From the NCBI GenBank assembly GCA_945902075.1, contig CAMDMA010000009.1:1-64000 (forward strand): a stretch of DNA of 64,000 nt, read 5' to 3'. Positions 4,552-59,700 of the stretch are shown here, piece by piece. Made by a program: the position numbers and the translations under genes. This DNA comes from Candidatus Kuenenia stuttgartensis (GTDB lineage Bacteria > Planctomycetota > Phycisphaerae > Phycisphaerales > SM1A02). Within the stretch, counting starts at the first letter, position 1, and each line of letters opens with the position of its first letter. The notes below the pieces were generated by a model. It was not told where the DNA came from. It saw only the letters and a list, made by a program, of their open reading frames with translations, and made no database searches.

Positions 4552-5577
4552 CTACGCGAGCGCGAGCGCGCCCTCGCACGCGTCCGCGAGGTCCGCGACC
4601 GTCGATGCGTCATGGCATTCAAGCGCGATGCCTGGGCGAAGTGAGCGGAATCGGCGTAGCCAAGTGCGCTGCTGCTTGGCGAGTCGGCGCGATCGGATCT
4701 TGGTTTGCTCTGCCGCGTCGAGCAGTTCGTGTGCAGGCGGTACGCGCGAGCCTTCACCGAGCACAGTCGCGAGTTCCTCATACCCAACAGCCGCGCGCGC
4801 CTGCGCGCACATCCCACCACGCGCAAGAAGCGAAGCAACTTCATCGGCAAAGCCAGCCTCAAACATGCGGCGCACACGCGCGTTAATGCGTCTGGAAACC
4901 AGTTCGACCGGCCAGTCGAGAATCACCGTGAAGAGATCATCTCGTTGTGGCGCGACCCCGGCTTCGCCCCATGCGGTGCGTCGATCGGTTGCGGTGTCGC
5001 CGGTGGTATGCGCAATTTCAAGTGCGCGCACGATGCGGCGACGATCGTTCGGATGGAGTCGCGCTGCCGCGACCGGATCGCTTGATGCGAGGCGCGTGTG
5101 CAGTTCGACACTCTCGATCGCTTCGAGCGAGTTCCGAAAATGGTGGTCTGCGGCAGGAGCTTCGTCGAGACCTTCAAGAAAAGCCCGGATGTAGAGGTTG
5201 GTACCGCCAACGACAATGGGAACACGCCCGCGGGCACGAATCTCATTGATGGCGTAGTTGGCAAGTTCAAGCCAACGCGCAACGGTAAAGCCCTCGTCTT
5301 TCGCGTCGACGAGGTCGATGCAGTGATGTTGAATCTCGGCGCGCTCCGTGGCGGTCGGTTTCGCAGTACCGATGTCCATGCCACGATAGACCTGCATGGA
5401 GTCGGCCGAAACAAGTTCGCCATCGAAGCGACGAGCAAGTTCAAGTGCGAGATCACTCTTGCCGCCCGCAGTCGGGCCGAGAATGACGATCACGCGACGC
5501 GCTGCAGCAGCGCGAGCGAGCGCTCGGCGTCGGCCGGGTTCATCGGCAGGGGCGAGGAGGTCATTCATGGTGCTCAT
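4552..5577 (-). CDS. miaA: tRNA dimethylallyltransferase
   Basis: VIVILGPTAGGKSDLALELARRFDGELVSADSMQVYRGMDIGTAKPT. Confidence 0.97.
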   Translation of the reverse strand: MSTMNDLLAPADEPGRRRALARAAAARRVIVILGPTAGGKSDLALELARRFDGELVSADSMQVYRGMDIGTAKPTATERAEIQHHCIDLVDAKDEGFTVARWLELANYAINEIRARGRVPIVVGGTNLYIRAFLEGLDEAPAADHHFRNSLEAIESVELHTRLASSDPVAAARLHPNDRRRIVRALEIAHTTGDTATDRRTAWGEAGVAPQRDDLFTVILDWPVELVSRRINARVRRMFEAGFADEVASLLARGGMCAQARAAVGYEELATVLGEGSRVPPAHELLDAAEQTKIRSRRLAKQQRTWLRRFRSLRPGIALECHDASTVADLADACEGALALA

Positions 5578-5620
5578 TCATGGTGCTCATTCATGGAGCT
5601 CATTCATGGAGCTCATTCAT
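5561..5620. repeat. 13-bp tandem repeat (tcattcatggNgc), about 4.6 copies, over the miaA start
   Basis: Direct reading: tcattcatggtgc x2, tcattcatggagc x2, then tcattcat. Confidence 0.95.
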
Positions 5621-5709
5621 CGCGTTCACGCATGGATTTCCTCACTGAACCATCAGACGTGATTCCCCACAATCGATCCAAAAAACTCGCATGGATCTTG
5701 CAATGAGAA

Positions 5710-6939
5710 TCAATGATTGTTGCAATCGTCGAGCGCGTCGAGACAAACGAGATGCTTCCCTTCGAGCACCTCGAGGCTTGCGCCGCCGCCCGTCGAAACG
5801 TGTGAAATCCGATCAGCGAACCCAAATTGTTCGACGGCGGCCGCAGTGTCGCCGCCGCCCGCGATGGTTGTTGCGCCGAGCGCGGTTGCCGCGACGACAG
5901 CCTCGCCAACCGCGCGTGTTCCCGCATCAAATGGCGGCATTTCAAACACACCCATCGGCCCGTTCCACACGATCGTTCGGCTAGAACGAATCGCCTCGCC
6001 GAAGCGCGCACGTGTGTCAGGCCCGATGTCAAGGCCCATCCAGCCATCGGGAATCGCCCCGACAACAGTTGTGGTTTCGGTTCCTTGCTTAAAGTCACGA
6101 CCGCACACGTGATCGGTCGGGAGGAGGAATTCGCAGCCTTTCGCCGCTGCTTTGGCGAGAATTTCTTTGGCGAGATCGATCCGATCTGATTCGACGAGAC
6201 TCGCGCCGGTCGCAATGCCGCGGGCACGCAGGAACGTGTAGGCCATTGCGCCGCCGACAATGAGTCGATCGACTTTCGACATCAAATTTTCAATCGCGAG
6301 AATTTTGTCCGAAACCTTTGCGCCGCCGAGGATCGCAAGAAACGGGCGTTCGGCGGCTGCGATTCGAGCGATGAGGTACTCGAGTTCTGCAGCCAGTAAA
6401 AAGCCAGCGACCCGTTGCGCGCCCTTCGCGCCCATCGCCATCGGAAGCGCGTGCATCGATGCATCTGCTCGGTGACTAGTCCCAAACGCGTCGTTGACGT
6501 AGATGTCGCAAAGATCCGCGAGTTTGGCAGCAAACGCCGGATCGCCCTTCTTCTCCCCCTTGGCAAACCGGAGGTTCTCGAGAAGCACCACGCCGCGTTC
6601 AGGCATCGCAAGCACTGCGGCGCGTGCGGAATCGTCCACGCAGTCGTTGGAGGGAAATGTCACGCCATGCGGCGCATCTGGCCCAAGGAGCTCGGCAAGC
6701 CGCCTCGCGACGGGCGCGAGGGAGGAGTCCGCTTCGAAACCCTTGCCGTCGGGCCGCCCAAGGTGACTTGCAAGCACCACGCGGCCACCGCGCGCAAGCA
6801 CGGACCGAATCGTCGGCAGGCTTGCTCGGATGCGGCGATCATCGCTGATCACCGAGCCTTCCATCGGAACATTGAAATCCACCCGCACAAAAACGCGTTT
6901 GCCCGCAACGTCCACCGAATCGATTCGCTTCTTGCGCAT
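5710..6939 (-). CDS. pgk: Phosphoglycerate kinase
   Basis: RVFVRVDFNVPMEG, VVLASHLGRPDGK, GGGDTAAAVEQFG motifs. Confidence 0.98.
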   Translation of the reverse strand: MRKKRIDSVDVAGKRVFVRVDFNVPMEGSVISDDRRIRASLPTIRSVLARGGRVVLASHLGRPDGKGFEADSSLAPVARRLAELLGPDAPHGVTFPSNDCVDDSARAAVLAMPERGVVLLENLRFAKGEKKGDPAFAAKLADLCDIYVNDAFGTSHRADASMHALPMAMGAKGAQRVAGFLLAAELEYLIARIAAAERPFLAILGGAKVSDKILAIENLMSKVDRLIVGGAMAYTFLRARGIATGASLVESDRIDLAKEILAKAAAKGCEFLLPTDHVCGRDFKQGTETTTVVGAIPDGWMGLDIGPDTRARFGEAIRSSRTIVWNGPMGVFEMPPFDAGTRAVGEAVVAATALGATTIAGGGDTAAAVEQFGFADRISHVSTGGGASLEVLEGKHLVCLDALDDCNNH

Positions 6940-7062
6940 AGGGCCGCACTATACGGACCGTCGCCCTCAGAAACCGATCAGGATCCACCGCAAAGTTCTC
7001 GACTCCGGGGCCATACGGCGCGCTCGAGACGTGTATCATCGCCTCCTCTCACAGGAGCCTTC

Positions 7063-8106
7063 ATGATCCGCTTTGAATTCCGCGCTCTCATCGCAGCTGC
7101 CCTCGCCTCCATCGCCACGCTGACGTCTTCGGCCGCCCCCCAGGACGATCAACTCAAGATTGGCTCTGCACCGCCGCCAATTACGGTCGACTGGGTGCAA
7201 GGCAATGTCTCCGACGTCACGACCGCGGGGAAGACGTACGTCGTGGAATTTTGGGCCACATGGTGCGGACCGTGCATGCGCTCGATCCCGCACCTGAACG
7301 AACTCCACAGCAAGTACAAGAGCAAGGGCCTCGTGATCATGGGGATCTCCGACGAGGACATGGGCACAGTGAAGCCTTTTGTGACGAAGAAGAGCTCTGC
7401 GATGTCATACCCGGTTGGGGTCGACCGCGACCGGGGTATGAAGCAAGCGTGGATGGAGGCCGCGAAGCAGAACGGCATCCCATGCGCGTTCATCGTCCGC
7501 GATTCAAAGATCGTTTGGATCGGTAACCCGCTCGATCCAAACTTCGACAATGTGCTGCTTGGGACGATGAGCGGTCGTTACAACCCTGCGCTTACAAAGA
7601 AGGCTGAGCCGATTTTGCGCGCCGCAAAGGACGCTGTCCGCATCAAGAATTTCCAGGACGCCTACAAGCACTACGACTCGGTTCTTGCGATCGATCCTGT
7701 TGTCTTCGGAAACGTCGCCGTCATGAAGTACAAGACCATGGTTGTCGACGCGAAGGATCCTGTGGCTGCGCGCAAGTGGATGTACCAATTTATGACGCTC
7801 CAAAGTCGTGACGGAACGACGATGCGCGAAATCGCGGAGACCGTTCTCAACGACAACCAGATTACCGAGCGCGACCTTGAGCTCGCCCGTGATGCGGCGT
7901 TGTACTTAAACAACTTCAACTCATCTCCAGCAGCGAGTGCGTTGCTTGCAGAGGTGTACTACCGACAAGGCCAACTTGAAAAGGCCTCAGAGTTTCAGTT
8001 GCAAGCTTGGATGTCGGCCGATGCAGATGAAAAGGCTGATTTCAAGCGCGCGCTCGATCTCTACAAGAAGGCCGTCGCTTCAAAGGCAGCGGCTGCAAGC
8101 AAGTAG
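7063..8106 (+). CDS. TlpA-like thioredoxin-fold protein with C-terminal TPR-like region, exported
   Basis: Signal peptide MIRFEFRALIAAALASIATLTSSAAPQ; VVEFWATWCGPCMRSIPHLNEL; start after aggag. Confidence 0.85.
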   Translation: MIRFEFRALIAAALASIATLTSSAAPQDDQLKIGSAPPPITVDWVQGNVSDVTTAGKTYVVEFWATWCGPCMRSIPHLNELHSKYKSKGLVIMGISDEDMGTVKPFVTKKSSAMSYPVGVDRDRGMKQAWMEAAKQNGIPCAFIVRDSKIVWIGNPLDPNFDNVLLGTMSGRYNPALTKKAEPILRAAKDAVRIKNFQDAYKHYDSVLAIDPVVFGNVAVMKYKTMVVDAKDPVAARKWMYQFMTLQSRDGTTMREIAETVLNDNQITERDLELARDAALYLNNFNSSPAASALLAEVYYRQGQLEKASEFQLQAWMSADADEKADFKRALDLYKKAVASKAAAASK

Positions 8107-8144
8107 ATTTCGCACAAGTGCGATTGATGCGCTACGCTCGCACT

Positions 8145-8861
8145 ATGTCCGATCGCAGTGCAACAAATTCTTCGACGGCTCCCGCACCCGGGAGCCGTCG
8201 CCTTTTGAAGCTCGCCCATCGCGCAACGCTCGTTGCACCATCGATACTCTCCGCGGATTTCGCGAAATTGGGCGATGAATGCCGTGCAGCACTCGCTGCC
8301 GGCGGTGATCTTCTGCACGTCGATGTGATGGACGGTCACTTCGTTCCCAACCTCTCGATGGGTCCGGCCATTTGCGACTGCGTCCACCGCGCGCTCCCCG
8401 AAGCGGTGCTCGATGTACATCTGATGGTCACGGACCCGGCTGCGTACATCGAGTCGTTCGCGAAGGCAGGGGCGGCGCACATCACCTTCCATATTGAGGC
8501 GGTCAGCGATCCGCTCCCACTGGTAGCGCAGATTCATGCGCTTGGATTGACCGCGGGATTGGCGATCAATCCGGACACGCCAGCTGCCGCGCTCGAGCCC
8601 TACCTCACGGACATCGATCTCGCGCTGGTGATGAGTGTGCATCCCGGGTTTTCCGGCCAAAAGTTTATCCCTTCGGTGCTGCCGAAGTCTCGAACGCTCC
8701 GCGACGCTGCGCCGCGCGGACTTCGAGTCGAGATGGATGGTGGTATCACTCCGGAGACCGCACCCGCTTGCCGTGCCCATGGCTGCGACATCCTTGTCGC
8801 GGCGAGCGCGATCTTTGGGCGTAACGACTATGCGTCCGTGATCGCGGCACTTCGCGCCTGA
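8145..8861 (+). CDS. rpe: Ribulose-phosphate 3-epimerase
   Basis: VAPSILSADFAKLGDE, HVDVMDGHFVPNLSMGP, VHPGFSGQKF, VEMDGGI. Confidence 0.96.
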   Translation: MSDRSATNSSTAPAPGSRRLLKLAHRATLVAPSILSADFAKLGDECRAALAAGGDLLHVDVMDGHFVPNLSMGPAICDCVHRALPEAVLDVHLMVTDPAAYIESFAKAGAAHITFHIEAVSDPLPLVAQIHALGLTAGLAINPDTPAAALEPYLTDIDLALVMSVHPGFSGQKFIPSVLPKSRTLRDAAPRGLRVEMDGGITPETAPACRAHGCDILVAASAIFGRNDYASVIAALRA

Positions 8862-8906
8862 CAAGCTTCACCTGAGCAGATTCGTCTTTCGAGGTACACT
8901 CCTCCC

Positions 8907-9746
8907 GTGGCTGAAACGACCTGGACGCAGACCGACCTCGCGCAAACCCCGAAGAAGGGTGTGCCCGAAGGTCTTTGGATGAAATGCCCCTCGTGCGAGG
9001 AGACGCTTTTTAAGAAAGCCGTCGAGTCGAATCTGTGGGTGTGCCCTAAATGCCAACATCACATGCGCATGAGCGCGCGGGTTCGCGTCGAGCAACTTCT
9101 CGACCCAGGTACGTTCGAGCAGATCGATGAGTTTCTCGTCGCGGTTGACCCTCTCCATTTTGTGGACACGAAGTCTTATCCGGCCCGCATCGCGGATACG
9201 CGCAAAAAGACTGGCGAGCGCGATGCGCTCCTTTCAGGCTTCGGCTTCGTCAAGGGTCGCCGGGTTGTCGTCGCGGTCATGGACTTCACGTTTCTTGGCG
9301 GCTCCATGGGTTCGGTGGTCGGTGAGAAGATCACTCGCGCGATTGAGTGTGGGATCGACCATGATCTCCCGGTCGTGACGGTTGCCTGTTCCGGCGGCGC
9401 GCGCATGCACGAATCAGGCTTTTCGCTCATGCAGATGGCAAAGACCAGCGCCGCACTCGCGCGGCTCGACGAAGCAGGCGGACTTTACATTTCCGTGCTC
9501 GCCGACCCGACGACCGGCGGTGTTACCGCAAGCTTTGCGATGCTCGGCGACGTCATCTTCGGCGAACCAAAGGCGCTTATCGGTTTCGCGGGGCCGCGCG
9601 TGATCAAGCAAACGATCCGTCAAGATCTTCCTGAGGGATTCCAAACCTCTGAGTTTCTTCTTGAGAGTGGGTTCCTCGATCGCATCGTCCACCGCAAGGA
9701 TCTTCGATCGGAGATCGCCCGCGTGATCGACTATGCCGGTCGTTGA
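8907..9746 (+). CDS. accD: Acetyl-CoA carboxylase carboxyltransferase subunit beta
   Basis: CPSCEETLFKKAVESNLWVCPKCQHHMRMSARVR zinc motif; VTVACSGGARMHESGFSLMQMAKTSAAL. Confidence 0.97.
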   Translation: MAETTWTQTDLAQTPKKGVPEGLWMKCPSCEETLFKKAVESNLWVCPKCQHHMRMSARVRVEQLLDPGTFEQIDEFLVAVDPLHFVDTKSYPARIADTRKKTGERDALLSGFGFVKGRRVVVAVMDFTFLGGSMGSVVGEKITRAIECGIDHDLPVVTVACSGGARMHESGFSLMQMAKTSAALARLDEAGGLYISVLADPTTGGVTASFAMLGDVIFGEPKALIGFAGPRVIKQTIRQDLPEGFQTSEFLLESGFLDRIVHRKDLRSEIARVIDYAGR

Positions 9747-11466: not shown

Positions 11467-11488
11467 GCCGAACGGCCAACAGTTTGCA

Positions 11489-11523
11489 GTTGAGGTTCAC
11501 GTTTGAGGATCACGTTTGAGGCA
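11489..11523. repeat. Approx. 13-bp tandem repeat (tttgaggNtcacg), about 2.6 copies
   Basis: ttgaggttcacg / tttgaggatcacg / tttgaggca between lnt and the HEAT-like gene. Confidence 0.75.
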
Positions 11524-11535
11524 TGGAGGCCAACG

Positions 11536-12723
11536 ATGGTTGTTCAGCATTTATCGTCACGAGTCTCGGTGATCCTCTTCAGTGGTGTCGGCTTGACGCT
11601 CGTGGGAGTGGGATGCATGCGCGATATCGACGCCGAGACCGCTCGTCAGCAATTCAGTTCGAAACAGCAGTCGATCGTGACGGTTGATGGAGCGCAGGCC
11701 TCGCAGCAAGGTTCGACGCGAACCCCTGCGTCGATCCCCGCACTTGCGACGGGCCCTGTTTCACTCGCAGAGCCCAGCCTGGCAAACCCTGCCGCTGAGC
11801 GTGCTCACATCGTTTCGCAACTCGCGTCGACTCAACTCAAGGACGCGCAGTCACTCCTCCGCACCGCCGCGCGTAGTGCGTGGGCTGCGATTCGTGCCCA
11901 CGCGATTGAAGCGTCGGTGGGCAATCCCGAACTCTTGACTGAACTTGCGCCCGCCGCACTTGCCGACGAAAATCGTGGAGTCCGTTTCGTCGCGTGCATG
12001 GCCATCGCGGAAGCACCGTCTGAGGGTCTCAGCGTCTTTGTGCAGCCACTGCTTCAAGACGAAAGCGCATCGGTCCGTGCGTCTGCCACGCTCGCACTCA
12101 CGCGCTGCGGAAAGACACCTGATCCATCGCCGATCGCGGCGATGATTTTCGAGAACGACCCTGAGGTGCGTGCGAATGCGTATCTCGTCCTCGGCGAACT
12201 CGGCAACCGTTCGGCAGTGCCCATGATTCGCGACTCGCTTGGCCAAGGTCTCAGCCTAGTCAATCCGCTGCGAGTTCGGCTCATTGACCTCGCTGCAGCC
12301 GAGGCACTTGTCAAACTCGGCGATCAGCATGAGATCGAGCCGATTCGCGCGGCACTCTTTGCACCTCCCGAGCAAGCCGAACTGACGATCGTCGCATGCG
12401 GTGCGCTTGGTCGACTCAAGGACGAAGTCGCGCGTCCGATGCTAGAGCGACTCTTGAGCGTCGACGGTAACTCAAAGCGTTCGCCGGAGATTCGGCTGTC
12501 CGCGGCACTCTCGCTGATGGAGATCGGCGCGTCCCCCGACATGGCCATTCTCGTCGCGAAGGAGTACATCACGAATAGCGACGCGCGCGTCCGCGCGCTC
12601 GTTGCATCGCTCTTAGGAAAGACTCGTTCACCGGAGGCGGTCGCATCGTTGGCATCCCTGATTCGGGACAGCGATCCGACCGTGCAGGTCGCCGCTGCAG
12701 GTGGTCTTGAACTTGCCGATTAG
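11536..12723 (+). CDS. HEAT-repeat lipoprotein
   Basis: Lipobox LVGVGC after a hydrophobic N-terminus; repeated ALADENRGVRFVACMAIAEA / LQDESASVRASATLALTRCG helical repeats. Confidence 0.8.
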   Translation: MVVQHLSSRVSVILFSGVGLTLVGVGCMRDIDAETARQQFSSKQQSIVTVDGAQASQQGSTRTPASIPALATGPVSLAEPSLANPAAERAHIVSQLASTQLKDAQSLLRTAARSAWAAIRAHAIEASVGNPELLTELAPAALADENRGVRFVACMAIAEAPSEGLSVFVQPLLQDESASVRASATLALTRCGKTPDPSPIAAMIFENDPEVRANAYLVLGELGNRSAVPMIRDSLGQGLSLVNPLRVRLIDLAAAEALVKLGDQHEIEPIRAALFAPPEQAELTIVACGALGRLKDEVARPMLERLLSVDGNSKRSPEIRLSAALSLMEIGASPDMAILVAKEYITNSDARVRALVASLLGKTRSPEAVASLASLIRDSDPTVQVAAAGGLELAD

Positions 12724-12750
12724 GGCTTGCCGATTCCCGCTTGCCAATTC
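12712..12750. repeat. 14-bp tandem repeat spanning the stop codon of the HEAT-like gene
   Basis: cttgccgattaggg cttgccgattcccg cttgccaattc. Confidence 0.9.
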
Positions 12751-12883
12751 GTTTTTGGCGCGGGTCGCTGGCGTGTCGGTCCCTTGTCTTCGCGGCACGA
12801 ACGCAGCACGGTTACCGCACAAAAGATCAGGTATGCCGCCTGTTTGAGCTCAAATTCCACCGGCATGTTGCGAGCAGTCAAAG

Positions 12884-12931
12884 CTCAAATCACGGCGCAA
12901 GTCTCGGCTCAAGTCACGGCGCAAGTCTCGG
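12884..12931. repeat. 24-bp x2 (or degenerate 12-bp x4) tandem repeat
   Basis: ctcaaatcacgg cgcaagtctcgg ctcaagtcacgg cgcaagtctcgg. Confidence 0.92.
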
Positions 12932-12979
12932 TAGGCGTCACATCGTGCGTCATAGTGGGGCGACTCCCGTTCACAGCAG

Positions 12980-13027
12980 CTACTTCGCTCGTTTCATCGC
13001 TTCTTTCGTTGCTCATTTCATCGCTTA
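12980..13027. repeat. Degenerate 12-bp x4 repeat (tttcatcgctNN)
   Basis: ctacttcgctcg tttcatcgcttc tttcgttgctca tttcatcgctta. Confidence 0.75.
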
Positions 13028-13032
13028 GGGGT

Positions 13033-13061
13033 TTGACACCCGACGAGCCTATCGGTACAAA
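13033..13061 (+). promoter_or_regulatory. Predicted sigma70-type promoter (TTGACA-N17-TACAAA) upstream of the mre-associated cluster
   Basis: ttgaca 13033-13038, 17-nt spacer, tacaaa 13056-13061. Confidence 0.6.
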
Positions 13062-13177
13062 ACCACACTCTCCGCGGTCCGTCCCCATCAATGTGATGGA
13101 ACGCACCTCGGGTGACAAACGAGAGCGTGACGCGGAGCGTGCGCTTCTCAGCAAACTCCGTCCGAAGGAATTCATCC

Positions 13178-14077: not shown

Positions 14078-14153
14078 GACGGCGTTTGAATTGGCTGTGT
14101 TCTGAGGGCTGGCGAACTGTTCACATTGAGCCCGCCCAAGCAAGGAAATCTCC

Positions 14154-14342: not shown

Positions 14343-14544
14343 GTGCGCGTTGCCTGCGTTCGAGGCAACAACTTCCAGTTCGCGTCGCTGGATGAGTCTT
14401 CTGGGAGAGATACCTAGAAGTGATGAGCCGCGGCTGCGATGGTGCTTGTGCCTGTTTCGACTCTTTCTCAACGCCGCCGCAAGGCGGCGTTGTGCTTGAC
14501 CTGCTACTCTCTCGGTTGCGGCGGAGGGCCGCAAGGGAGATACC

Positions 14545-24411: not shown

Positions 24412-24517
24412 ACGCGTTGATGACGCGTTGATGACGCGATACATGACGCGATACATGACGCGATACATGACGCGATACATGACGTAATCCATGACGTAAT
24501 CCATGACGTAATCCATG
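24412..24517. repeat. Composite tandem array: acgcgttgatg x2 (11 bp), acgcgatacatg x4 (12 bp), acgtaatccatg x3 (12 bp)
   Basis: Direct reading; the last unit ends exactly on the ATG (24515-24517) of the next gene. Confidence 0.98.
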
Positions 24518-33709: not shown

Positions 33710-35353
33710 TTACGGGGTGGTGAAATCAAGGCACTTTTCAAGTGCGGCCATATCGTCCACATTTTCAACCACGCACTCAATCACACCGTCTTTGATCGCG
33801 AGAACCACAGGGGTTCCGATCACATAGTTCGGGCCCTTGATCATCGAAACCTTGGTGCACGCGTCGCATGGGTTTCCGAGGATCGCGTTTGGATCCGCAT
33901 CTGGGATTGCGATCGTGAGCGTCGGGTACTTGAGTGTTCCGCCGAAGTGCGTCGAGAGCATCTCAAAGCAATGGTCACAATCTTCGCGGTAGTACACCAC
34001 GATCCATCGTCCACGCAAGAAATTGGCGGGAAGCTTGTTCTCGACGAGGCGAGCGAACGGGAGATCGGCAAGTTTCTTTCCCACGACATCGCCGAACTCG
34101 GCGACATAAAACGGTTCAAGTTTCGTCGGCGGTCCTGGCCAAGTCGGTACAGGAGGCGCGACCGAAACAGGTTGCGTCGGCGGCGCGACTGCGGCCGCAG
34201 ACTTACCAAACACGGCGTCGTACTCCGCGGCAATAGTGCGATCCTCGCACACCGCCGTCACGATGCCGTCTTTCATGCGTACGACGACCGGAGTGCGGAA
34301 GACGTACTCTGGACTCTTTCCAGTTTCGCCAGCTTTCACGCGGAACACCATGCGCTCCTCGCAACCCACGCACGGCATGCCAAGCGGGGTGCCCCGACTG
34401 TCAGGCACGGTGACCTTCAGGATGCGCTCCGGCCGCGGCACCGCAAAGTTGGCGCGGTAGAGTGACTGACAGTCCTCGCAATCGCTCCGGGAGAAGACGA
34501 CAAGCCAATCGCCGCGTTCGAAATCGTTTGGTAGGGGACGCTCGATTGCGAGCGCGAGTTTCTGTTCACGAAGCGGCTTTCCAACCCAGGTTTTCCAGCG
34601 CGGAAAATAGTTGCGCTCGTACTTGGTCGGAGCGGCGGGCCACGGACCGACGATCGCGCTAGCAGACGGCTGCGGGGGTTCGGTTGGAGCAGACTGCCCA
34701 CCAGACGGCGTTGCAGATGGATCAGGCACCTGAGCTGCCGTTGTGTCCGTGCTGACTGCAGACTCGTTCGCAGTCGGCTCGGGGGCGGCCATCGTCGGTT
34801 CAGGAATTGCAAACACCGCAATGACGCCAGCTGCAAACGCTCCCATCAATGGCATCGTCGAACCAGCGCGCTTTGCAGGAACAAGAAGTAGCGCGGTCAA
34901 CAGGAGCGCTCCATCGATCAGAAACATCACGCTCGCGGGCAGGCCTTGTTCGCCGAAGCAGCCGCAGCCACCGGTCAAGGCTTTCACCAAACCATCTTTC
35001 ACCGCTGTTTGGCCCATCGCAACCAACAGGATGAGGCAGAACAATCCGAGCGTTCCAATCGCGATGGTTCGCGCAAACCGCGTCGACAGAAGGATGGTGA
35101 GGACGATGAAGATCTCCGCGCCGATGATTGCCCGAAGTGACCACGTGAGAAACACGCCTGGATCGACCGAGAGCACTCCGGTGAGCCATCGCAGCAGTTC
35201 AAGAATCGGAGGCGGAAGCAGGTTCGGGTTGAATTCGAGAGCTTTTACGACGGCGCCGTAACCGATCCACGCGGCAGTCCCTCCATGAAGGAGCGTGAGG
35301 CCAACGAGTTGCGGGGCGGTCCGGGCGGCGGATGCGGGGGCGGATGCGGTCAT
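33710..35353 (-). CDS. MauE/DoxX-like membrane protein with two tandem double-CxxC domains
   Basis: TM region ending GGCGCFGEQGLPASVMFLIDGALLL; WLVVFSRSDCEDCQSLY..MPCVGCEE and WIVVYYREDCDHCFEML..NPCDACTK. Confidence 0.78.
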   Translation of the reverse strand: MTASAPASAARTAPQLVGLTLLHGGTAAWIGYGAVVKALEFNPNLLPPPILELLRWLTGVLSVDPGVFLTWSLRAIIGAEIFIVLTILLSTRFARTIAIGTLGLFCLILLVAMGQTAVKDGLVKALTGGCGCFGEQGLPASVMFLIDGALLLTALLLVPAKRAGSTMPLMGAFAAGVIAVFAIPEPTMAAPEPTANESAVSTDTTAAQVPDPSATPSGGQSAPTEPPQPSASAIVGPWPAAPTKYERNYFPRWKTWVGKPLREQKLALAIERPLPNDFERGDWLVVFSRSDCEDCQSLYRANFAVPRPERILKVTVPDSRGTPLGMPCVGCEERMVFRVKAGETGKSPEYVFRTPVVVRMKDGIVTAVCEDRTIAAEYDAVFGKSAAAVAPPTQPVSVAPPVPTWPGPPTKLEPFYVAEFGDVVGKKLADLPFARLVENKLPANFLRGRWIVVYYREDCDHCFEMLSTHFGGTLKYPTLTIAIPDADPNAILGNPCDACTKVSMIKGPNYVIGTPVVLAIKDGVIECVVENVDDMAALEKCLDFTTP

Positions 35354-38677: not shown

Positions 38678-38678
38678 T

Positions 38679-44767: not shown

Positions 44768-44805
44768 CCACGCACGGTGATCCGACGCACGGTGATCCGA
44801 CGCAC
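44768..44805. repeat. 15-bp tandem repeat (cgcacggtgatccga), about 2.5 copies
   Basis: cgcacggtgatccga cgcacggtgatccga cgcactcg. Confidence 0.85.
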
Positions 44806-46834: not shown

Positions 46835-47830
46835 TCAGCCGTCTTGCAACGCTTTCGTCGTCTTTGTCTTTGCGACCTGTGCGTCATGCTCCATTGCAGC
46901 GGCGTGTGCAGCCGCGAGTCGCGGGAAATCGTTGGAAAACCAGGCCTGCCATCGTGCAGCGTCATAGCCAAATGGTGGAGCGGGTTGGCCTATCGAACGC
47001 TCCACGACGGTATTGAGTGCGAAGTGCACTTCGGTACGGTAAATCTCAACCATCGACTCCATAATGCGCAGCACGCTTCCTTCAAAGATCGTGCCGGGTA
47101 TTGGTTGAAATGCACCAGATTCATCACCGACCACCGGAACTGCGCCCGCGATGTAGTTGATGGTCTTCCCGATGGCGATCCATGCTTCGTCGCCGCGCTT
47201 TGCCTTTGGTGGCGCATACTGCGCGGCGATCAGTGGTGGAATCAACGCCGCAGACGCGTGCGCCGAGCCGACCATCGCGGCGCGATTGATGAAGAGTTCA
47301 CGGTCGCCTTCTAAATATCGCGCGAGCACCGATTCGGCTCGTGGTGCAAGCGGTGTTGGAAGTGCGTCTATTGCGCTCTGGCGGATGAGATCGTCGCCGA
47401 TCACCGCATAGTGAATGAGCTGAACTTGTCCGAACGAGGGTTCGTTCGCGAGCGCTGCGAAAAGCGCACGACGGATCCGCGCGTCGCTCGCGATGAGATT
47501 CGGGCGATCTGCTTCTCCGCTGAGAACATTGACCGCAGCTTCAAGCTCGATTGTTGTTCGGAGATTCGCGATCGGAGCGATCACTGCTTCGGTTTCGGCG
47601 GGAGTGTTCGCGTCGGAAATGCCTCGCCCCACAAGTGACCGGATTTTCTTCTGTGCCGCCGCAAGGTCTACTTCAAGGTCTACTTCAAGGTCTACTTCCT
47701 GAGAGCCGCCAGGCTTTCTGGCGGTTGGCGCTGCCGACGAGTCAACGACGGGGTTCGCTGGCGACAGCTGCGGCGATGTCTGGCGCAAGAGGGCGAGCGT
47801 TGTCACGGCGAAGAGAAGGGCGAAATTCAT
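46835..47830 (-). CDS. Exported helical-repeat protein of unknown function
   Basis: Signal-like MNFALLFAVTTLALLRQTSP; ARIRRALFAALANEPSF..IRQSAIDALPTPLAPRAES. Confidence 0.65.
   Translation of the reverse strand: MNFALLFAVTTLALLRQTSPQLSPANPVVDSSAAPTARKPGGSQEVDLEVDLEVDLAAAQKKIRSLVGRGISDANTPAETEAVIAPIANLRTTIELEAAVNVLSGEADRPNLIASDARIRRALFAALANEPSFGQVQLIHYAVIGDDLIRQSAIDALPTPLAPRAESVLARYLEGDRELFINRAAMVGSAHASAALIPPLIAAQYAPPKAKRGDEAWIAIGKTINYIAGAVPVVGDESGAFQPIPGTIFEGSVLRIMESMVEIYRTEVHFALNTVVERSIGQPAPPFGYDAARWQAWFSNDFPRLAAAHAAAMEHDAQVAKTKTTKALQDG
47664..47699. repeat. In-frame 12-bp x3 repeat encoding EVDL x3
   Basis: aggtctacttca x2 plus aggtctacttcc inside the 46835-47830 CDS. Confidence 0.92.
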
Positions 47831-47987: not shown

Positions 47988-48440
47988 GTGGTGAGCAATA
48001 CCCAGACCGAAGATTCGTCTGATCCATCGCCTTCAAACGCGGCGCCGATGCACAGTACCGCGTCGCTCTTCGCGCGCATCGGACCAGAACCTTTCGCGGA
48101 TATCGCTGCAGGTCTCTACGCGAGGATCGACCGCGACCCGCGGATTCGCGCCATGTTCCCGGAGGATCTCTCACGGGCCAGTGAGTCGGTCCGCGACATG
48201 CGTGAGTTTCTCACCCAGTTTTTTGGCGGCCCCGGCGACTATTCCGCTCGAAAGGGGCACCCGCGATTGCGTGCGCGACACATGAGGTTTGCCATCGACG
48301 TCGCGGCGCGCGACGCCTGGCTCGAACAGGCACTTGCGGCGCTTCGGGAAGCCGCAACCAAACACGGGCTCGATGCATCGCAAGAAGCAGAAATCGCAGA
48401 CTACTTGGTGAGGACTTCGCAGTTCATGATGAACGCATGA
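47988..48440 (+). CDS. Truncated haemoglobin (group II-like)
   Basis: LFARIGPEPFADIAAGLYARIDRDPRIRAMFP..FLTQFFGGPGDYSARKGHPRLRARHMRFAI. GTG at 47988 or 47991. Confidence 0.9.
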   Translation: MVSNTQTEDSSDPSPSNAAPMHSTASLFARIGPEPFADIAAGLYARIDRDPRIRAMFPEDLSRASESVRDMREFLTQFFGGPGDYSARKGHPRLRARHMRFAIDVAARDAWLEQALAALREAATKHGLDASQEAEIADYLVRTSQFMMNA

Positions 48441-48490
48441 TGAATGCATGATGAATGCATGATGAATGCATGATCAGAGCATGATCAAAG
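48425..48490. repeat. 11-bp tandem repeat (catgatgaatg), about 6 copies, spanning the globin stop codon
   Basis: catgatgaacg, catgatgaatg x3, catgatcagag, catgatcaaag. Confidence 0.93.
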
Positions 48491-48531
48491 TACGATCGAC
48501 GAACAAACGGACTTCCGTCGCCAAACGGGGT

Positions 48532-49401: not shown

Positions 49402-49480
49402 TGGGGTACTCTAAGGACCCACGGTGCTTCGTGTTCCGTGACGCGAGCCGCTCCCCGCCAAGCATCAAAGGATTGTCCCG

Positions 49481-50953: not shown

Positions 50954-50971
50954 ACCTCGGTGGCGTCGGGG

Positions 50972-51040
50972 ACGGTCACGCACGGCGAGTACGGTCACGC
51001 ACGGCGAGTACGGTCACGCACGGCGAATACGATCACGCAC
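50972..51040. repeat. 19-bp tandem repeat (ggtcacgcacggcgagtac), about 3.6 copies, spanning a stop codon
   Basis: Unit starts at 50974, 50993, 51012, 51031; contains the tca complement of the stop of the minus-strand gene at 51033. Confidence 0.95.
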
Positions 51041-52838: not shown

Positions 52839-52936
52839 GGAGGTTGGAAGGTACGCAGGATTCAGGGGTCGAGCCAACGCGACACGCTCGAATCACTGAA
52901 ATCGCGAGGATGCCGCCGTGTGGTCCCAAACGCAAG

Positions 52937-52974
52937 CGAAAAGACAGCCCCCCGGCCGTTTCCGGCCGGGGGGC
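52937..52974 (-). terminator. Rho-independent terminator of the 53039-55969 gene
   Basis: Perfect 12-bp stem gccccccggccg-tttc-cggccggggggc, minus-strand tail TGTCTTTTC. Confidence 0.85.
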
Positions 52975-53038
52975 AAAGGTTGACCATCACTTGCGATGTA
53001 CCGCGCAGCGCGCTTTCACGCGTCACGATGCACTCGAG

Positions 53039-55969
53039 TTACGGGCAGGCACCCCAGTTGTAGAGGAGCGCCGAGAGGTCAGCGGCGTTGGTCGTGCCGT
53101 CGCCATCGATATCGCCGCCCGGTCCACCCCACGCCAAGAGGAGCGCCGAGAGGTCAGCAGCTGAGACGAAGCCGTCGCCATCGAAATCGCCTGGGCAAGC
53201 CGTACCGCACTTGCCCTGTTGCGTGATGTCGATGGTTCCAGCGCCGAAGCTTGCTGCGCCGAAGCCACCCACGGAGATGTAGTAGGTCGTGCCGCAGACG
53301 GGGGTGAAGAACACCTTCGACTGGAGCAGGCCAGGACCGCAAACGTCGGTGTCGTCGTTGCAAGCAACGAGCGCGCCGTCGCAACCACCCGCAAACACAG
53401 CGATCTTCGTGTCATACGCCGAGCCGCAGAGCGAGATGATGCACTCACCGTCGCCAGCTGCCGAGTAGGAGTACCAGAGGTCGTTGAAGATGTTTGGATT
53501 GCCGAACTTGGTGCAAGCTGCGGTGATGCCGGTAGCCCCAGTCGTATCGAATGGAGTCGAGCCGATCAGCACCGGAAGCGCTGCAGAGCATTCGTCGTTC
53601 TTCGGTCCGGGTACGCCGGCTCCAATGACGAGATCCGTCGCGCCGGTCGCGCCCGCCCAACCGCCTACGCGGATGGTGTAGGTGACGCCTGCATCCATGT
53701 TGATGTTGAGGCTCGAGGCAAACGCCGCGCAACCCGTACCGTCATCGTTGCAACCGAGGATCGTGCCACCTGCAGCCGGGCAAGCGCTCCAAACTTCGAT
53801 ACCCGTGTCGAACGGAGTTGCACCCGAGCAAGTCTCGAGCACCACAGCGCCGGTCGTATCCGGAGTGAAGACGAACCACACGTCCTTCGTGAAGGCCGTG
53901 CCGCCGAAACCACAGCTCGGATCGGCAATTTCGGTGCTCGCAAAGGTGTTGTCGAAGGGATTGGCACCAACGACGGCAACCGCAGCATCCACGCAGTTGT
54001 CGTTTGCCGGGGCCGATGCGTCACAAGCGATGCCAGTCACCGCGAGCGAGTAATCATTGCCGAACTCGAAACCGCATGGGAAGCCAGCGAACACGCCGGG
54101 AAGCGCGACGACCAGATACTGTCCCGGAGGGAAGCAGAAGGTGGTCGTTCCGCCACAGTTCCCCGTGGTCGGTGTGCCGACGATTCCACCGCAAGCGGTG
54201 TCAACGAAGGCTGCGAAGCAAGGCATGTTGGAGTAAATCGTGAGGGTGACTTCGGTCGCCTCAGCGAGGTTGAGCGTGTACCAGTCGGTGTCGCGGGTGT
54301 CAGCGTCGGCCCAGAAGGTGCCGCCCATGATGTCGCCGACCGCAATGGCCTCGGTCTCACCAGCGGAGTTGCAGCCGCCGTTGAGATCCTCGCCACACAG
54401 TTCGGCCTCAGTCGCGGTCGGAGCCGGGAGCTTGCATGAACCAGCGCCGCACGCTCCGCAGAGCAATGCCGCCTGATCCGCGCAGATCTGATCCCACTGG
54501 CTCTCACAGCAGAACGCATCGGCAGCGCAGACGGCCGTGCAGCACGCCTCATCGTTGCAGGACGCGGTGGTGTTCGCCACACAGCAATCGCCTGCGGCCG
54601 GATCGCCGCAAGCAATGACGGTGCTTCCGTAGATCATGGTGAGCGTACCGATGCCGGAGTTGCCAGCCGCGTAGCCACCGACTGCGACCACAACTTCAAC
54701 CCCGGTCGTGCCAGTGAACTCCACCGTCGAGGTGAAGTTGGTGCACGCTGCTGGGCCGTCGTCGTTGCAAGCGACTGCGGAGAATGGATCGCAGCTTCCG
54801 AGGATCGCGAGACGGGTGTCCCATGTCGCGGTCGCGCAGGTGGTCGCCGTCCAGATGCCGTCCTGGGTCGGGGTGAAGCGGTAGTACGTCACGTTGTAGA
54901 GAAGGTCGTCACCGAACGTGCCCGGATCGCAGATTCCAGTGAGGTCGAGGTTGCCCGAGCCGATGGTGGTTGCGAAATCGTTCGGGCCTTCAATGACTGC
55001 GGTCGCAGTCGCGAGGTCGCAACCGCCGCCACCGCCGCCACCGCCGCCCGCGGAAATCGCGAGAGCGCCAGCGCCACCACCGGTGGTGCCGTAGCCGCCA
55101 ACGACCACGATGCAGGTCTGACCCGCGGTCAGATTCGCGGAGGTCTGGCTCTGCAGAGCGCAGAGGTCATCGTTGCAGCCGAGGACGCCGTTGGCCGGAA
55201 CGCAGTCGTTCATCACCGCGATGCGCGTGTCGAAAGTCGCGCCGCCGCAGAGGGAGAACGTGTAAGTGTCGTCCGCCGGAGCAACGAAGCTGAAGTAGAT
55301 CGACTTGTAGATGTTGTGGTTGGTTCCACAGCCAACGATCGCCGTGGGCGTACCCGAATCGGTGCTGTCGAAGGGGTTTGAACCTTCGACAGCAACAAGC
55401 GGCGCAGCACAATCGCTGCCAGCGGCCGGAGGGGGAGCGAAGGAGATATTAAGGTTCGCTGTGCCGACATCGACCGCGGCGTAACCGCCGATACCCACGT
55501 AGTAGGTCGTGCCCGCGACGAGGTCAGACGTCAGCGGAATACCGCCGGTCGATGGGCTAAGCTTGCTCGCCCACGCGGCGTTTCCTGCCGCGCCACAGCC
55601 TGACGAGCAGGCGCAGGTATCGTCGTTGTACGCCACGACAGGCCAGGAGGTGGTTGCGCTGGTCGGGCAGGCCGTCGCGATCGCCATCTTCGTATCAAAG
55701 GCGGATCCGCAGAGGCTGAGGACATACGGGCCAGTTGACGCCGGGGTGAAGGCGTACCAGGCGACGTTGTAAATAGTTGTCGTTCCGCCCGCGACGGTGG
55801 ATTGGGTGAGTTGGTTGGGTGTACCGGCCGCGTTGCCGACGGCGTTGTCGCCGAGCGCAACCTGAACGGCAGTCTCGCACGTCTGGGCCATTGACGCCGA
55901 CGTCACGAACGAAGACACGAGGGCCGCAGCCGTTGTGCTACAGATAAATGTCCATTTCTTCGCACGCAT
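53039..55969 (-). CDS. Large secreted multi-domain protein with dockerin-like C-terminus
   Basis: Signal peptide MRAKKWTFICSTTAAALVSSFVTSASMAQ; repeated SLCGSAFDTKMAI..CNDD..YYVGIGGY modules; one Cys-rich repeat; C-terminal DFDGDGFVSAADLSALLLAWG..DIDGDGTTNAADLSALLYNWG. Confidence 0.88.
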   Translation of the reverse strand: MRAKKWTFICSTTAAALVSSFVTSASMAQTCETAVQVALGDNAVGNAAGTPNQLTQSTVAGGTTTIYNVAWYAFTPASTGPYVLSLCGSAFDTKMAIATACPTSATTSWPVVAYNDDTCACSSGCGAAGNAAWASKLSPSTGGIPLTSDLVAGTTYYVGIGGYAAVDVGTANLNISFAPPPAAGSDCAAPLVAVEGSNPFDSTDSGTPTAIVGCGTNHNIYKSIYFSFVAPADDTYTFSLCGGATFDTRIAVMNDCVPANGVLGCNDDLCALQSQTSANLTAGQTCIVVVGGYGTTGGGAGALAISAGGGGGGGGGCDLATATAVIEGPNDFATTIGSGNLDLTGICDPGTFGDDLLYNVTYYRFTPTQDGIWTATTCATATWDTRLAILGSCDPFSAVACNDDGPAACTNFTSTVEFTGTTGVEVVVAVGGYAAGNSGIGTLTMIYGSTVIACGDPAAGDCCVANTTASCNDEACCTAVCAADAFCCESQWDQICADQAALLCGACGAGSCKLPAPTATEAELCGEDLNGGCNSAGETEAIAVGDIMGGTFWADADTRDTDWYTLNLAEATEVTLTIYSNMPCFAAFVDTACGGIVGTPTTGNCGGTTTFCFPPGQYLVVALPGVFAGFPCGFEFGNDYSLAVTGIACDASAPANDNCVDAAVAVVGANPFDNTFASTEIADPSCGFGGTAFTKDVWFVFTPDTTGAVVLETCSGATPFDTGIEVWSACPAAGGTILGCNDDGTGCAAFASSLNINMDAGVTYTIRVGGWAGATGATDLVIGAGVPGPKNDECSAALPVLIGSTPFDTTGATGITAACTKFGNPNIFNDLWYSYSAAGDGECIISLCGSAYDTKIAVFAGGCDGALVACNDDTDVCGPGLLQSKVFFTPVCGTTYYISVGGFGAASFGAGTIDITQQGKCGTACPGDFDGDGFVSAADLSALLLAWGGPGGDIDGDGTTNAADLSALLYNWGACP

Positions 55970-56309
55970 CTTGTGATCTCCTGAAGGTTGACCTGAACAC
56001 TCTTCTGACGATCCGTTCGGCAACCTCAACGGGCCCCCGAACGTCCAACCTGCTGCGCTGCACCTGCCGCCGGGCGCCGTCTCTCGCGGGGACCCGTTGG
56101 TAAAGTCACGACCACAGCCATAACCCAGCCACGAAGGGCCGGATTGATGCAGACCATAACTCCTTTCTATCACCGTCCAAATCCGAAACTCAATCTTCGA
56201 ATATTTGTGTAACTCCGTCCGGGAGGAGACCCCATCGCTGGAACGAGAGCGGAGAGGAAGTCGTTATATTCTTGGGTCCCGTTCGTCCTGCAAACCTTTG
56301 GAGCATCCC

Positions 56310-56780
56310 ATGACCCTTCCAGTCGGCACCTTCGCCCCCAAGTTCGAACTTCCCTCGAAGCCAGGAGAGGTCGTCGATGTGGGCGCTCTGCTCGGCCGCG
56401 AAAAGGTTGTCCTTTTGTTCTTCCCCTTGGCATTCAGTTCAGTTTGCACCGAGGAATTGTGCCATTTCCGCGACCATTGGGCTGAATGGAACTCTCTTGG
56501 CTGCAAGGTTTTCGGCATCTCTATCGACAGCCCGTTTGTAACCGACAAGTTTCGATCGGAACTCTCGATCCCGTTTCCAGTCCTGTCAGACTTCAACAAG
56601 ATTGTTGCTGCAAGTTACGACGCGCTTCATGCGGATCTCATGGGCCTCAAGGGTGTGACGAAGCGTGCTGCGTATGTCGTCGCCAGTGATGGCACGATCG
56701 CCTACGCGTGGGAAGCGGAGATTCCGAAGACCCAGGTCGACTTCGCTGCGATTCGCGCTGCGGTTGTTTCAGCGAAGTAA
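56310..56780 (+). CDS. Peroxiredoxin (AhpC/TSA, AhpE/PrxQ-like)
   Basis: KVVLLFFPLAFSSVCTEELCHFRDHWAEW; AYVVASDGTIAYAW. Confidence 0.92.
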   Translation: MTLPVGTFAPKFELPSKPGEVVDVGALLGREKVVLLFFPLAFSSVCTEELCHFRDHWAEWNSLGCKVFGISIDSPFVTDKFRSELSIPFPVLSDFNKIVAASYDALHADLMGLKGVTKRAAYVVASDGTIAYAWEAEIPKTQVDFAAIRAAVVSAK

Positions 56781-56805
56781 CAGACCGCCTTGCGGGATAT
56801 CCGGC

Positions 56806-57912
56806 TTAGGACTTCCCGCTCGGCATCGGACGCGCGTCCTCTTGGCGGTACCGGCGTAGTGTCGACTCGTACAGTTTGCGAGTCTTCGGATCGGTCTGGA
56901 GCCGGATCGCGCGTTCGATTGTCTCAATGGCTTTCGGCTTGTTGCCTTGAGAGAAGTAAGCAAGTGCGAGTACCTCCGCCGACTTGGAGTCTTGTTCCTT
57001 ACCAAGGGCATCGGCCGCGGAGGCGACGGCAAAGGCGAACGCGAGATCGCGTCGTTCTACCTGTGGCGCGGCAAGTGTCGCTCGAGCGATCGAACGCAAA
57101 CTCACAATGTCCTTTGCATACTTGACTGCGAGTGCTCGGCCGTAGCGATATCCCTCGTCCGGCTGCTTCGCGGGCCCAATCAGCGTCGTAAACTTCTTCA
57201 ATTCAAAGTTCGAACCCCGCTGCGGGATCGCAATCGCGACAGCATCGAGCAATTCGATCGTGGGCGCCCAGTTTCCCGACTTCTCGCTTTCCGCAATTCG
57301 GCTGTTGATCTGCTCAAGAGCCCGCGCGACAAGCGAGTTCGTCACGCAGTCCGCACGAACCGACTCGGGATTCCACGACCCCGCAGCGATTTCCGCGAGT
57401 GGTTTCTCTGCGAAATCTGGATGGCCAAACCAAAGTACCGTTCCGTCCCGCACCACAAAGAGGCGCGGCGCGAGGTTCTGAAACGTGGGGTGCTGCAGCG
57501 CATTTGCAGCAGCCTGCTCGGGGTCAGAGACAATTGACTCGAGCGCGTGCTCGCCCACACCCGGCTTTGCGAGCCAAGCCGAGACGACGGTTGCGGGTTC
57601 GTAACTCACACCGATGAATCGGAAGCCTCGCGCGGCATAGGTGCGCTCAAACTCTTTGATCATCGGTGCGGCTTGCGCACACTGGCCGCAGGTACTTGTG
57701 AAAAAGTCGAACACATATGTTGTGCCCGGCTCAAACGCCGTCGCCGGCGTCCCCTTCACGAAGTTGGTGAGCTTCGGAAACTCGATGCGTGCGCCTGGAA
57801 AGACGGTTGGCTGTTCGGCGCGATAGACCGATTGGCCCGAAGCGGCTGGCGAAGGAGGAGTCGAGGTGCTCTGCAAGGAGAGCATCGCGGCGAGCATGGC
57901 GGTTTGGAGCAT
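56806..57912 (-). CDS. TlpA-like thioredoxin-fold protein with C-terminal TPR-like region
   Basis: YVFDFFTSTCGQCAQAAPMIKEFERTYAARGFRFIGVSYE; RLFVVRDGTVLWFGHP. Confidence 0.8.
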   Translation of the reverse strand: MLQTAMLAAMLSLQSTSTPPSPAASGQSVYRAEQPTVFPGARIEFPKLTNFVKGTPATAFEPGTTYVFDFFTSTCGQCAQAAPMIKEFERTYAARGFRFIGVSYEPATVVSAWLAKPGVGEHALESIVSDPEQAAANALQHPTFQNLAPRLFVVRDGTVLWFGHPDFAEKPLAEIAAGSWNPESVRADCVTNSLVARALEQINSRIAESEKSGNWAPTIELLDAVAIAIPQRGSNFELKKFTTLIGPAKQPDEGYRYGRALAVKYAKDIVSLRSIARATLAAPQVERRDLAFAFAVASAADALGKEQDSKSAEVLALAYFSQGNKPKAIETIERAIRLQTDPKTRKLYESTLRRYRQEDARPMPSGKS

Positions 57913-57950
57913 GGCGAACTCGTGGTCAAAACTAGCCGTGAGGGCTCGAA

Positions 57951-58697
57951 CTATTCGTTCACATCCTTCGCGATAGGTCGGCGAATAAGCACCGATAGCG
58001 TTGGTGCCTTGCTGTGATCGGTGGAAATCTCAAGGCGCATCGGTTTTCCTGCTTCAAGCCAACGAGACCAATCTAGGGCGACGGTCTGCGTGAGCGATCG
58101 CTCTGCGGATCCGGCGGTCGCGATGTCAGGTGAAAGCGAAGCGATCGAAAACTGTTCGCCATCCGCAGACTCAATCTGAATCACAGCGGGCGCGGCCCAT
58201 CCCTCACGGTCGTCGTTGCTCGGTGCTGTGAAGCTCGACGGCGAGAATCGGAGGAACATTCCAACTTTTCCAGTGACAGTGAGAAACGTTGGTGACCCGT
58301 TTTCAAGCATGTAGGTAACACGCTTCGTCAAGGTCACGCCTTGCTCAGTGCCAGCTTCAATCTCGACGGTCGTGTCGACGCTTTCGCCAGGAGCGATAGG
58401 CGAATCAGGCCAACTCGGCGTCGTACAGCCACAATCTGCAATCGCTTTGGTCACTCGAAGTGGCGTCAAGCTCCGGTTCGTCAGCCGCACCGATTTGACG
58501 ACGGGGACTCCTGGCAGCAAATCACCCATATCGAGCGTTGTTGGTTCGACCAACAGCGGGGCGTCGGCCACGGTCGACTCCAGAGTGGGCGGCCTTTCGC
58601 ATCCGACAAACGCGTACGGCGTGACAGCAAAAAAAACGAGCGTCCTCAATGTGTGACGAATGACCGGATAAATGAGTCGAATACGACAATCGAGCAT
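57951..58697 (-). CDS. DUF1573-type lipoprotein-like protein
   Basis: LDMGDLLPGVPVVKSVRLTNRSLTPLRVTKAIADCGCTTPSWPDSPIAPGESVDTTVEIEAGTEQG. Confidence 0.8.
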   Translation of the reverse strand: MLDCRIRLIYPVIRHTLRTLVFFAVTPYAFVGCERPPTLESTVADAPLLVEPTTLDMGDLLPGVPVVKSVRLTNRSLTPLRVTKAIADCGCTTPSWPDSPIAPGESVDTTVEIEAGTEQGVTLTKRVTYMLENGSPTFLTVTGKVGMFLRFSPSSFTAPSNDDREGWAAPAVIQIESADGEQFSIASLSPDIATAGSAERSLTQTVALDWSRWLEAGKPMRLEISTDHSKAPTLSVLIRRPIAKDVNE

Positions 58698-58820
58698 GGG
58701 GGCGATTCCGTCTCTCGGTCCGTTTGCAAGCGTGACGTCGGTGAACTTCAAATGTACGCGGCTTCGATCAGCCGCGCGAGTCGCGACGATCGAGGCTTTC
58801 CTCTTCGTTAGGCTGCGCAC

Positions 58821-59528
58821 ATGCCGCCGCTCCCCGATCCATTGACTTCAGACGCTCCACGCGGATCCGGCGATGGGGCGGGTATTCCGATCAAAGTGCC
58901 CGGTTTCGACGCGACGCGATGCGCCCAGTACCTCGTCGGTACCGATGGCGCACCGCCGCGCGCGCAACTCATGCAGGCTCTCGCAGTCACGCTTGCACCG
59001 AGTGTTCCGCGTCGCGCGCTTGACCTTGGCTGCGGTCCCGGTCGGGAAACCCTCGCGCTTCTCCACGCAGGCTTTGAGGTCGTTGCGATTGATCCGTATG
59101 CCGAGATGATTTTGCGCACGCGCCGACTGTTGCAGTCAGATGCCGCCGAGCTTGTGCACCGCGCGCAACTCTTCGAAACGACACTCGAGCTTTACGCGCC
59201 TTCAATTCGCCATGGCGCATTCGGCTTGGTTCATGCTGGCTTCGTGCTGCCCTTTGTACTTCCAACGGACTTTGCTCTCGCGTTCGACAGTTTGCGTGCC
59301 GGGATCGCCAAGGGTGGGTTGTTCGTCGGTCAATTCTTCGGACCAAACGACGAGTTCATCCGCGAATCTGGCCGCGACGTCATGACCTGTCAGACCGCGG
59401 AGGAGGTTGATCGCCTGTTTGATGGATTCGAAATACTCTCTCGCGAGGAAGTCGATCGCGAGGGCCACATCGGAAGAGGTCGGGCCAAATGGTGGCATGT
59501 TCACCACATCGTCGCGAGGCGCGAGTAG
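58821..59528 (+). CDS. Class I SAM-dependent methyltransferase
   Basis: RRALDLGCGPGRETLALLHAGFEVVAIDPYAEM. Confidence 0.88.
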   Translation: MPPLPDPLTSDAPRGSGDGAGIPIKVPGFDATRCAQYLVGTDGAPPRAQLMQALAVTLAPSVPRRALDLGCGPGRETLALLHAGFEVVAIDPYAEMILRTRRLLQSDAAELVHRAQLFETTLELYAPSIRHGAFGLVHAGFVLPFVLPTDFALAFDSLRAGIAKGGLFVGQFFGPNDEFIRESGRDVMTCQTAEEVDRLFDGFEILSREEVDREGHIGRGRAKWWHVHHIVARRE

Positions 59529-59660
59529 CAACGGCCGCTCGCCTATTGGCGCGAGTCGAAAATCCAGTTCTCCGCCGAAGTGCACCTGCTCGCGAGGAAC
59601 TTCTCAAAGTTGCAGACCTGAGGTAAGAAGCCTCGTTTGATTGAAGCGGCGGACATGGCC

Positions 59661-59700
59661 CATGACCTAAGCATGACCTAAGCATGACCTAAGCATGACT
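59661..59700. repeat. 11-bp tandem repeat (catgacctaag), about 3.6 copies
   Basis: catgacctaag x3 then catgact. Confidence 0.93.

Follow-up and report, generated by a model that had tools for sequence, protein, structure and literature searches.

Short tandem arrays in the spacers and genes of a freshwater Planctomycetota genus: probable slippage-born minisatellites with an 11–12 bp unit and a recurring core word

Introduction

Why should at least ten short tandem arrays, each built from a different unit, lie at the borders of genes within 64 kb of a single bacterial genome? The stretch that raises this question (the window) comprises bases 1–64000 of contig 9 (98.6 kb; CAMDMA010000009.1) of a genome that we refer to as G000 (3.31 Mb in 70 contigs). 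The original prediction, made from these bases alone, took the arrays for locally duplicated gene termini, arising by a lineage-specific slippage or repair process or through selection at gene ends. All ten were recovered by Tandem Repeats Finder (TRF; main threshold, a score of at least 50) at nearly the positions proposed; nine are solid and the tenth (12992–13027) is weak. Similar arrays are found throughout the sequence analyzed and in the genus, and we consider it probable that they are young minisatellites, born by slippage at a rate raised genus-wide and filtered by selection.

Genome-wide excess of short tandem arrays

Of the arrays in the 1.58 Mb of G000 that was analyzed, 138 are intergenic, a density of 0.68 per intergenic kb, and 103 are coding, at 0.075 per kb. 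At scores of at least 50 there are 137 intergenic arrays in 202 kb, against 0–3 in Markov-3 resamples. The window itself has 12 arrays at this threshold and eight at scores of at least 60, where its Markov-3 shuffles have 0–2 and none, respectively. The most frequent period is 11–12 bp for intergenic arrays and 12 bp for coding ones; the spectrum of distances between repeated 6-mers, which is independent of TRF, also peaks at 12. The period is a multiple of three in 96 of the 103 coding arrays, and the intergenic periods show no frame preference. The arrays thus have two properties of minisatellites, with head-to-tail copies of a unit within the range of 7–100 bp, present above chance, and with in-frame periods where they are coding.

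The comparison genomes, each represented by a stitched sample of 0.2–0.4 Mb, were the congeners G003 and G013, the family-level relatives G021 and G024, and the order-level relative G034. Pattern searches covered 15 congeners with one genome per species, and most of the genomes are metagenome assemblies. Those relatives of the DNA polymerase I (Pol I) that carry names come from metagenome-assembled genomes (MAGs) of lake and pond Planctomycetota, one of them titled Phycisphaera sp. For perfect tandem duplications with a period of at least 10 bp, the density per intergenic kb is 0.52 in G000, 0.64 in G003 and 0.24 in G013; it is 0 in both G021 and G024 and 0.03 in G034, or about 0.01 for these relatives overall. 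Because arrays are also present in the coding sequences of G000, and because the congeners share the excess while the outgroups are near zero, we regard it as a trait of the genus that extends beyond gene borders. The suggestion of a lineage-specific, slippage-like process has therefore held up well, with the excess seen across 1.58 Mb and in the congeners. An assembly artefact is unlikely, since similar arrays are found in congener MAGs from several lakes and projects and are short enough to be contained in single reads.

Birth and growth of the arrays in syntenic spacers

Gene order around polA is conserved in 12 congener loci. Within this region a given spacer may hold an array in one species, an unrelated array in another and none in a third. 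The spacer that follows the HEAT-repeat gene, for example, has three arrays in G000 and other, unrelated ones in loci L023, L026 and L034, and is array-free in the rest. The junction of the response-regulator and pseudouridine-synthase genes is occupied by a 7.5-copy array in G000 and by a different array in L023, and in the congener loci L024 and L025 a mere 3–6 bp, free of any array, separate the two coding sequences. At 153 syntenic junctions compared between G000 and G013, those bearing arrays in G000 are longer than their G013 counterparts by a median of 98 bp, and the median difference at array-free junctions is 0. The miaA–pgk junction is 141 bp in G000, −8 bp in G013, and 54 bp in G003, where it includes a 45-bp array of its own; the spacer at the globin gene end (48425) is 91 bp in G000 and −31 bp in G013; and the convergent spacer at 50972 is 79 bp in G000, 6 bp in G013 and 14 bp in G003. 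As the congener junctions are shorter and either lack arrays or have unrelated ones, the arrays are young and were born independently in each species.

The smallest arrays bear on how a birth begins. A partial third copy of at least 3 bp is present at 15 of 21 isolated intergenic two-copy arrays, where blunt duplication predicts about 2%, and the microhomology flanking young two-copy arrays is 3–7 bp. Leftover partial copies of this type are expected if duplication starts between short direct repeats. We also note congener arrays within or beside conserved genes (L026:16458–16515, L030:9798–9864 and L024:11019–11061); one of them, a CATGATC array, is inside the pseudouridine-synthase gene, and others are in the polA gene region.

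We propose that this genus of freshwater, Phycisphaerales-like Planctomycetota has an unusually high rate of short tandem duplication, peaking at 11–12 bp. Duplication would start between direct repeats of about 3–7 bp located roughly 9–20 bp apart, and further slippage would then add copies, a growth recorded in blocks of variant copies. The whole genome would be exposed to this process. Within genes, selection would remove frame-breaking events and leave periods that are multiples of three, and at promoters and start regions it would remove most events; because of this purging, arrays would pile up in spacers, mainly convergent ones, and short gene junctions would become arrays. We infer replication slippage as the act itself from the observed excess, period spectrum, frame filter, microhomology, lineage-specific births and spacer growth.

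Several points weigh against this account. After array length is subtracted the spacers are still 62 bp longer than in G013, and array length is weakly correlated with the spacer difference (rho 0.26, n=22). The genetic cause that might be expected was not found in G000: MutS and MutL are both present with scores over the cut-off, so that we reject a mutator phenotype from mismatch-repair loss; RecJ is present; and Pol I retains the acidic residues, with known roles in its 5’-nuclease, that align to the acidic cluster of Taq, which leads us to discard a flap-endonuclease deficiency of the rad27 or polA-exo type. The G000 statistics come from 1.58 of 3.31 Mb, about half of the genome, and genes were called with our own simple codon-model finder, which places gene starts approximately. 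Finally, slippage alone predicts no favoured word, yet CATGA is in 22 of 137 intergenic units in G000 where 3.9 are expected, and CATGATC arrays or pairs are found at about 30 sites in the congener G007. RecJ gave no match in G007 (97% complete) and matches in all 30 other genomes searched; the missing gene may reflect an assembly gap or a real loss.

A recurring core word

The original prediction stressed that each array has a different unit and that the arrays do not form one dispersed family. This stands for the whole units, but a core word, CATGA or more generally CRTGA, recurs among them. In the window it is present in the arrays at 5556, 24420, 48425 and 59661, and CGTGA-type or TGATC relatives are present in those at 11490, 12883, 44770 and 50972. 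CATGA is 3–6-fold over expectation in G000 arrays: the intergenic excess is seen in two independent halves of the genome (12 against 1.7 and 10 against 1.9), and when distinct array loci are counted there are 35 against 11.5 expected from the genome-wide word frequency (corrected p 9e-6). Coding arrays contain it nine times against 2.6 expected, a nominal excess. CATGA triplets at 9–16 bp spacing number 83 in G000 and 5–148 in every congener, compared with 0–12 for the reversed word AGTAC. CATGATC pairs at 11–12 bp spacing number 61 in G007, 24 in G000, 15 in G003 and four in G012, and outside the genus there are mostly 0–3 per genome among the 151 genomes sampled. G166, of the same family but another genus, has 11 such pairs and is the only out-of-genus genome so rich among those 151. 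G007, the genome negative for RecJ, has the highest CATGATC array count among the sampled members of the genus.

Three simple explanations of the core were rejected. Base composition does not account for it, as the reversed word, made of the same bases, yields hardly any triplets; CATG is not an avoided palindrome in the background; and hairpin-driven expansion is not indicated, with tandemised units folding no better than random windows.

The alternative that survives best is a sequence-specific trans-acting factor (a DNA-binding protein, or a nicking or modification enzyme) that seeds or maintains arrays at a word such as CATGATC, the arrays being either its product or its binding sites. The number of CATGA loci in G000, the triplets in every congener far above those of the reversed word, the G007 loci and the nominal rise in coding arrays all speak for such a factor, as does the 11-bp unit CATGATGAATG, which is identical at loci in G000 and G015; these two loci are non-orthologous, and we have discarded them as orthologues. 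However, over three quarters of the arrays lack the word, and arrays of binding sites, with a conserved core and a variable linker, give no general signal (4 of 57 at p ≤ 0.05). Nor is the strand orientation of CATGA relative to genes consistent, being sense in 9 of 11 cases in codirectional G000 spacers and mixed in G007. A seemingly G013-specific core, AGCTC (228 matches against 0–18), was set aside and is a lead only, since counts of distinct loci show that a few long arrays dominate it. We therefore consider a trans-acting factor improbable, and it seems a shade more doubtful that a genus-specific factor, with CATGA(TC) and perhaps different words in sister species as its target, drives the birth or upkeep of 11–12 bp arrays throughout the genome as a programmed or enzyme-assisted generator of repeats, in place of passive slippage.

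Other words also vary among the congeners. Two long 12-bp arrays of about 19–20 copies in G013 (G013:C2:206144–206367 and G013:C16:35268–35513) have a nearly invariant GAGCTC and six variable positions, and CCACG differs between congeners with a contribution from coding repeats. ACGT is at 0.05–0.11 and CCGG at 0.2–0.4 of expectation in G003 and G013, compared with 0.6 and 0.8 in G000, which suggests different restriction-modification histories.

Placement relative to genes

The arrays of G000 lie closer to gene ends (median 31.5 bp) than random intergenic placement would put them (53 bp), but most of this bias disappears when arrays are shuffled within their own spacers (marginal, p about 0.06). 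Convergent spacers are 1.9-fold enriched, with 37 arrays against 19.6±4.1 expected, and divergent spacers are depleted (21 against 32.8±4.9). An excess at 3’ ends and in convergent spacers, with a deficit in divergent ones, fits avoidance of promoters and start regions; selection against change at these positions is sufficient to account for the placement, and the gene-border signal is mostly one of tolerance to length change.

The convergent enrichment, together with arrays that fill their spacers exactly (L190 and L198), could also be read as the mark of regulatory or termination elements selected at gene ends. Against this, orthologous junctions in congeners are array-free and function with spacers of 6 bp or with overlapping genes, the same junction has unrelated units in different species, and comparable arrays lie inside genes, so that such a role is very unlikely. 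We give similarly little credence to the arrays as footprints of a transposase or of staggered-break repair, in which a 10–14 bp target duplication is later expanded by slippage; the sharp 12-bp mode and a favoured, target-like word (CATGA) would suit this origin, but the period spectrum is broad (9–24 bp) and several base pairs of microhomology at two-copy arrays are unexpected from blunt target duplication. Least probable of all is the original proposal that stop and start segments are themselves the duplicated objects, for although four or five window arrays touch a gene end and some congener units begin with TGA, neighbouring stop codons (23 against 20.3±3.2) and start codons (4 against 8.4±2.6) are not included in arrays more often than if the arrays were placed at random within their own spacers, and some units hold gene termini simply because the spacers are short.

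Arrays of the window

All ten of the arrays first listed are wholly or mostly between genes, and four reach 8–16 bp into a neighbour (the 5’ side of miaA and the 3’ ends of the HEAT-protein gene, the globin gene and the gene at 51033). Confinement to intergenic space thus largely describes these ten, but equally good coding arrays, all three on the minus strand, had been overlooked: a 12-bp (four-codon) array of 3.1 copies that are 100% identical (47662–47698), a 12-bp array of 3.1 copies near a gene start (35313–35349), and a 9-bp array of 3.4 copies (55018–55048).

The bounds that follow are from TRF, supplemented by direct reading of the sequences of all ten arrays. The miaA–pgk spacer contains five copies of the 13-bp unit GGAGCTCATTCAT (5556–5636), arranged in a 39-bp higher-order unit and overlapping the 5’ end of miaA, which is on the minus strand. 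A 13-bp array (TTGAGGATCACGT, 2.5 copies; 11490–11521) separates lnt from the HEAT-repeat gene, whose TAG stop is inside the first copy of a 14-bp array (CTTGCCGATTCCCG, 2.8 copies; 12712–12750). A 12/24-bp array of two copies of GCTCAAATCACGGCGCAAGTCTCG (12883–12931) and the weak 12-bp array of three copies of TTTCATCGCTTA (12992–13027, placed at 12980 in the original prediction) complete this group; the latter scores 44 with 70% matches and by itself is near the shuffle level. At 24420–24508 there are 7.5 copies of a 12-bp unit (ATGACGCGATAC/ATGACGTAATCC) with variant copies in blocks, flanked by the stop codon of the response-regulator gene (24405) and the ATG of the pseudouridine-synthase gene (24515). 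The perfect 15-bp array at 44770–44805 (ACGCACGGTGATCCG, 2.4 copies) has a 6-bp direct-repeat leftover. The 11-bp array that overlaps the globin gene 3’ end (48425–48497; CATGATGAATG / CATGATCAGAG / CATGATCAAAG) is bounded by TRF at 48425–48485 and continues in degenerate form to 48497. A 19-bp array (ACGGTCACGCACGGCGAGT, 3.6 copies; 50972–51040) fills its convergent spacer, and a perfect 11-bp array (CATGACCTAAG, 3.5 copies; 59661–59699) is located in the spacer ahead of the tRNA-Gly and H+-PPase genes. An open reading frame (59695–60180) begins inside this last array and overlaps the opposite-strand tRNA-Gly; it has no Pfam match and is probably not a gene.

Relation to known systems and significance

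The claim that no described system resembles these arrays was too strong, as variation at intergenic tandem repeats of lake Planctomycetota was published in 2022. In that long-read metagenomic study (Okazaki et al. 2022, PMC9426551), structural variants were disproportionately found in Planctomycetota, where non-coding deletions frequently coincided with intergenic tandem repeats; it reported variation within populations and proposed slippage as the cause. The phylum, the lake habitat and the intergenic repeats with length variants are shared with our case; its main text is silent on unit lengths, motifs, density and phylogenetic limits, and describes neither coding arrays nor core words. Prokaryotic satellites (Subirana and Messeguer 2019, PMC6749651) are likewise scattered head-to-tail units of at least 10 bp, some in species-specific families. 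The densest bacterial replicon in that survey has 23 satellites per Mb with at least four copies, and Rhodopirellula baltica has four; G000, by a similar though not identical criterion, reaches about 44 per Mb, a density exceeded only by some Methanosarcina (PMC6749651). Short-unit satellites often derive from microsatellites of 3–8 bp (PMC6749651), whereas G000 has no microsatellite excess.

Two other classes of repeat were rejected. A dispersed family like the repetitive extragenic palindromes (REP), bacterial interspersed mosaic elements (BIME) or miniature inverted-repeat transposable elements (MITE) does not fit units that differ at each locus beyond a 5–7 bp core and show no excess hairpin folding, and a CRISPR (clustered regularly interspaced short palindromic repeats) array, with repeats of 24–40 bp and unique spacers, does not fit abutting, spacerless units of 9–24 bp. 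The variable-number tandem repeats used in multiple-locus typing (MLVA) are likewise short and lie in spacers or, with the frame kept, in genes, typically at tens of loci per genome; by extrapolation G000 has several hundred. While repeat variation in lake Planctomycetota was thus already known, the density of the arrays, the 11–12 bp unit and the recurring CATGA core are the features that call for explanation.

The arrays caution against taking repeats at gene borders for regulatory elements. This genus is a natural example of a strongly raised rate of 11–12 bp tandem duplication in a lineage whose MutS, MutL and RecJ, and the flap-nuclease residues of Pol I, are intact. Its spectrum of unit lengths, its frame filter and the empty congener junctions allow minisatellites to be measured as they arise, grow and disappear. 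The recurrence of the core word is an anomaly both specific and testable, and arrays of this kind account for some of the structural microdiversity seen in lake Planctomycetota.

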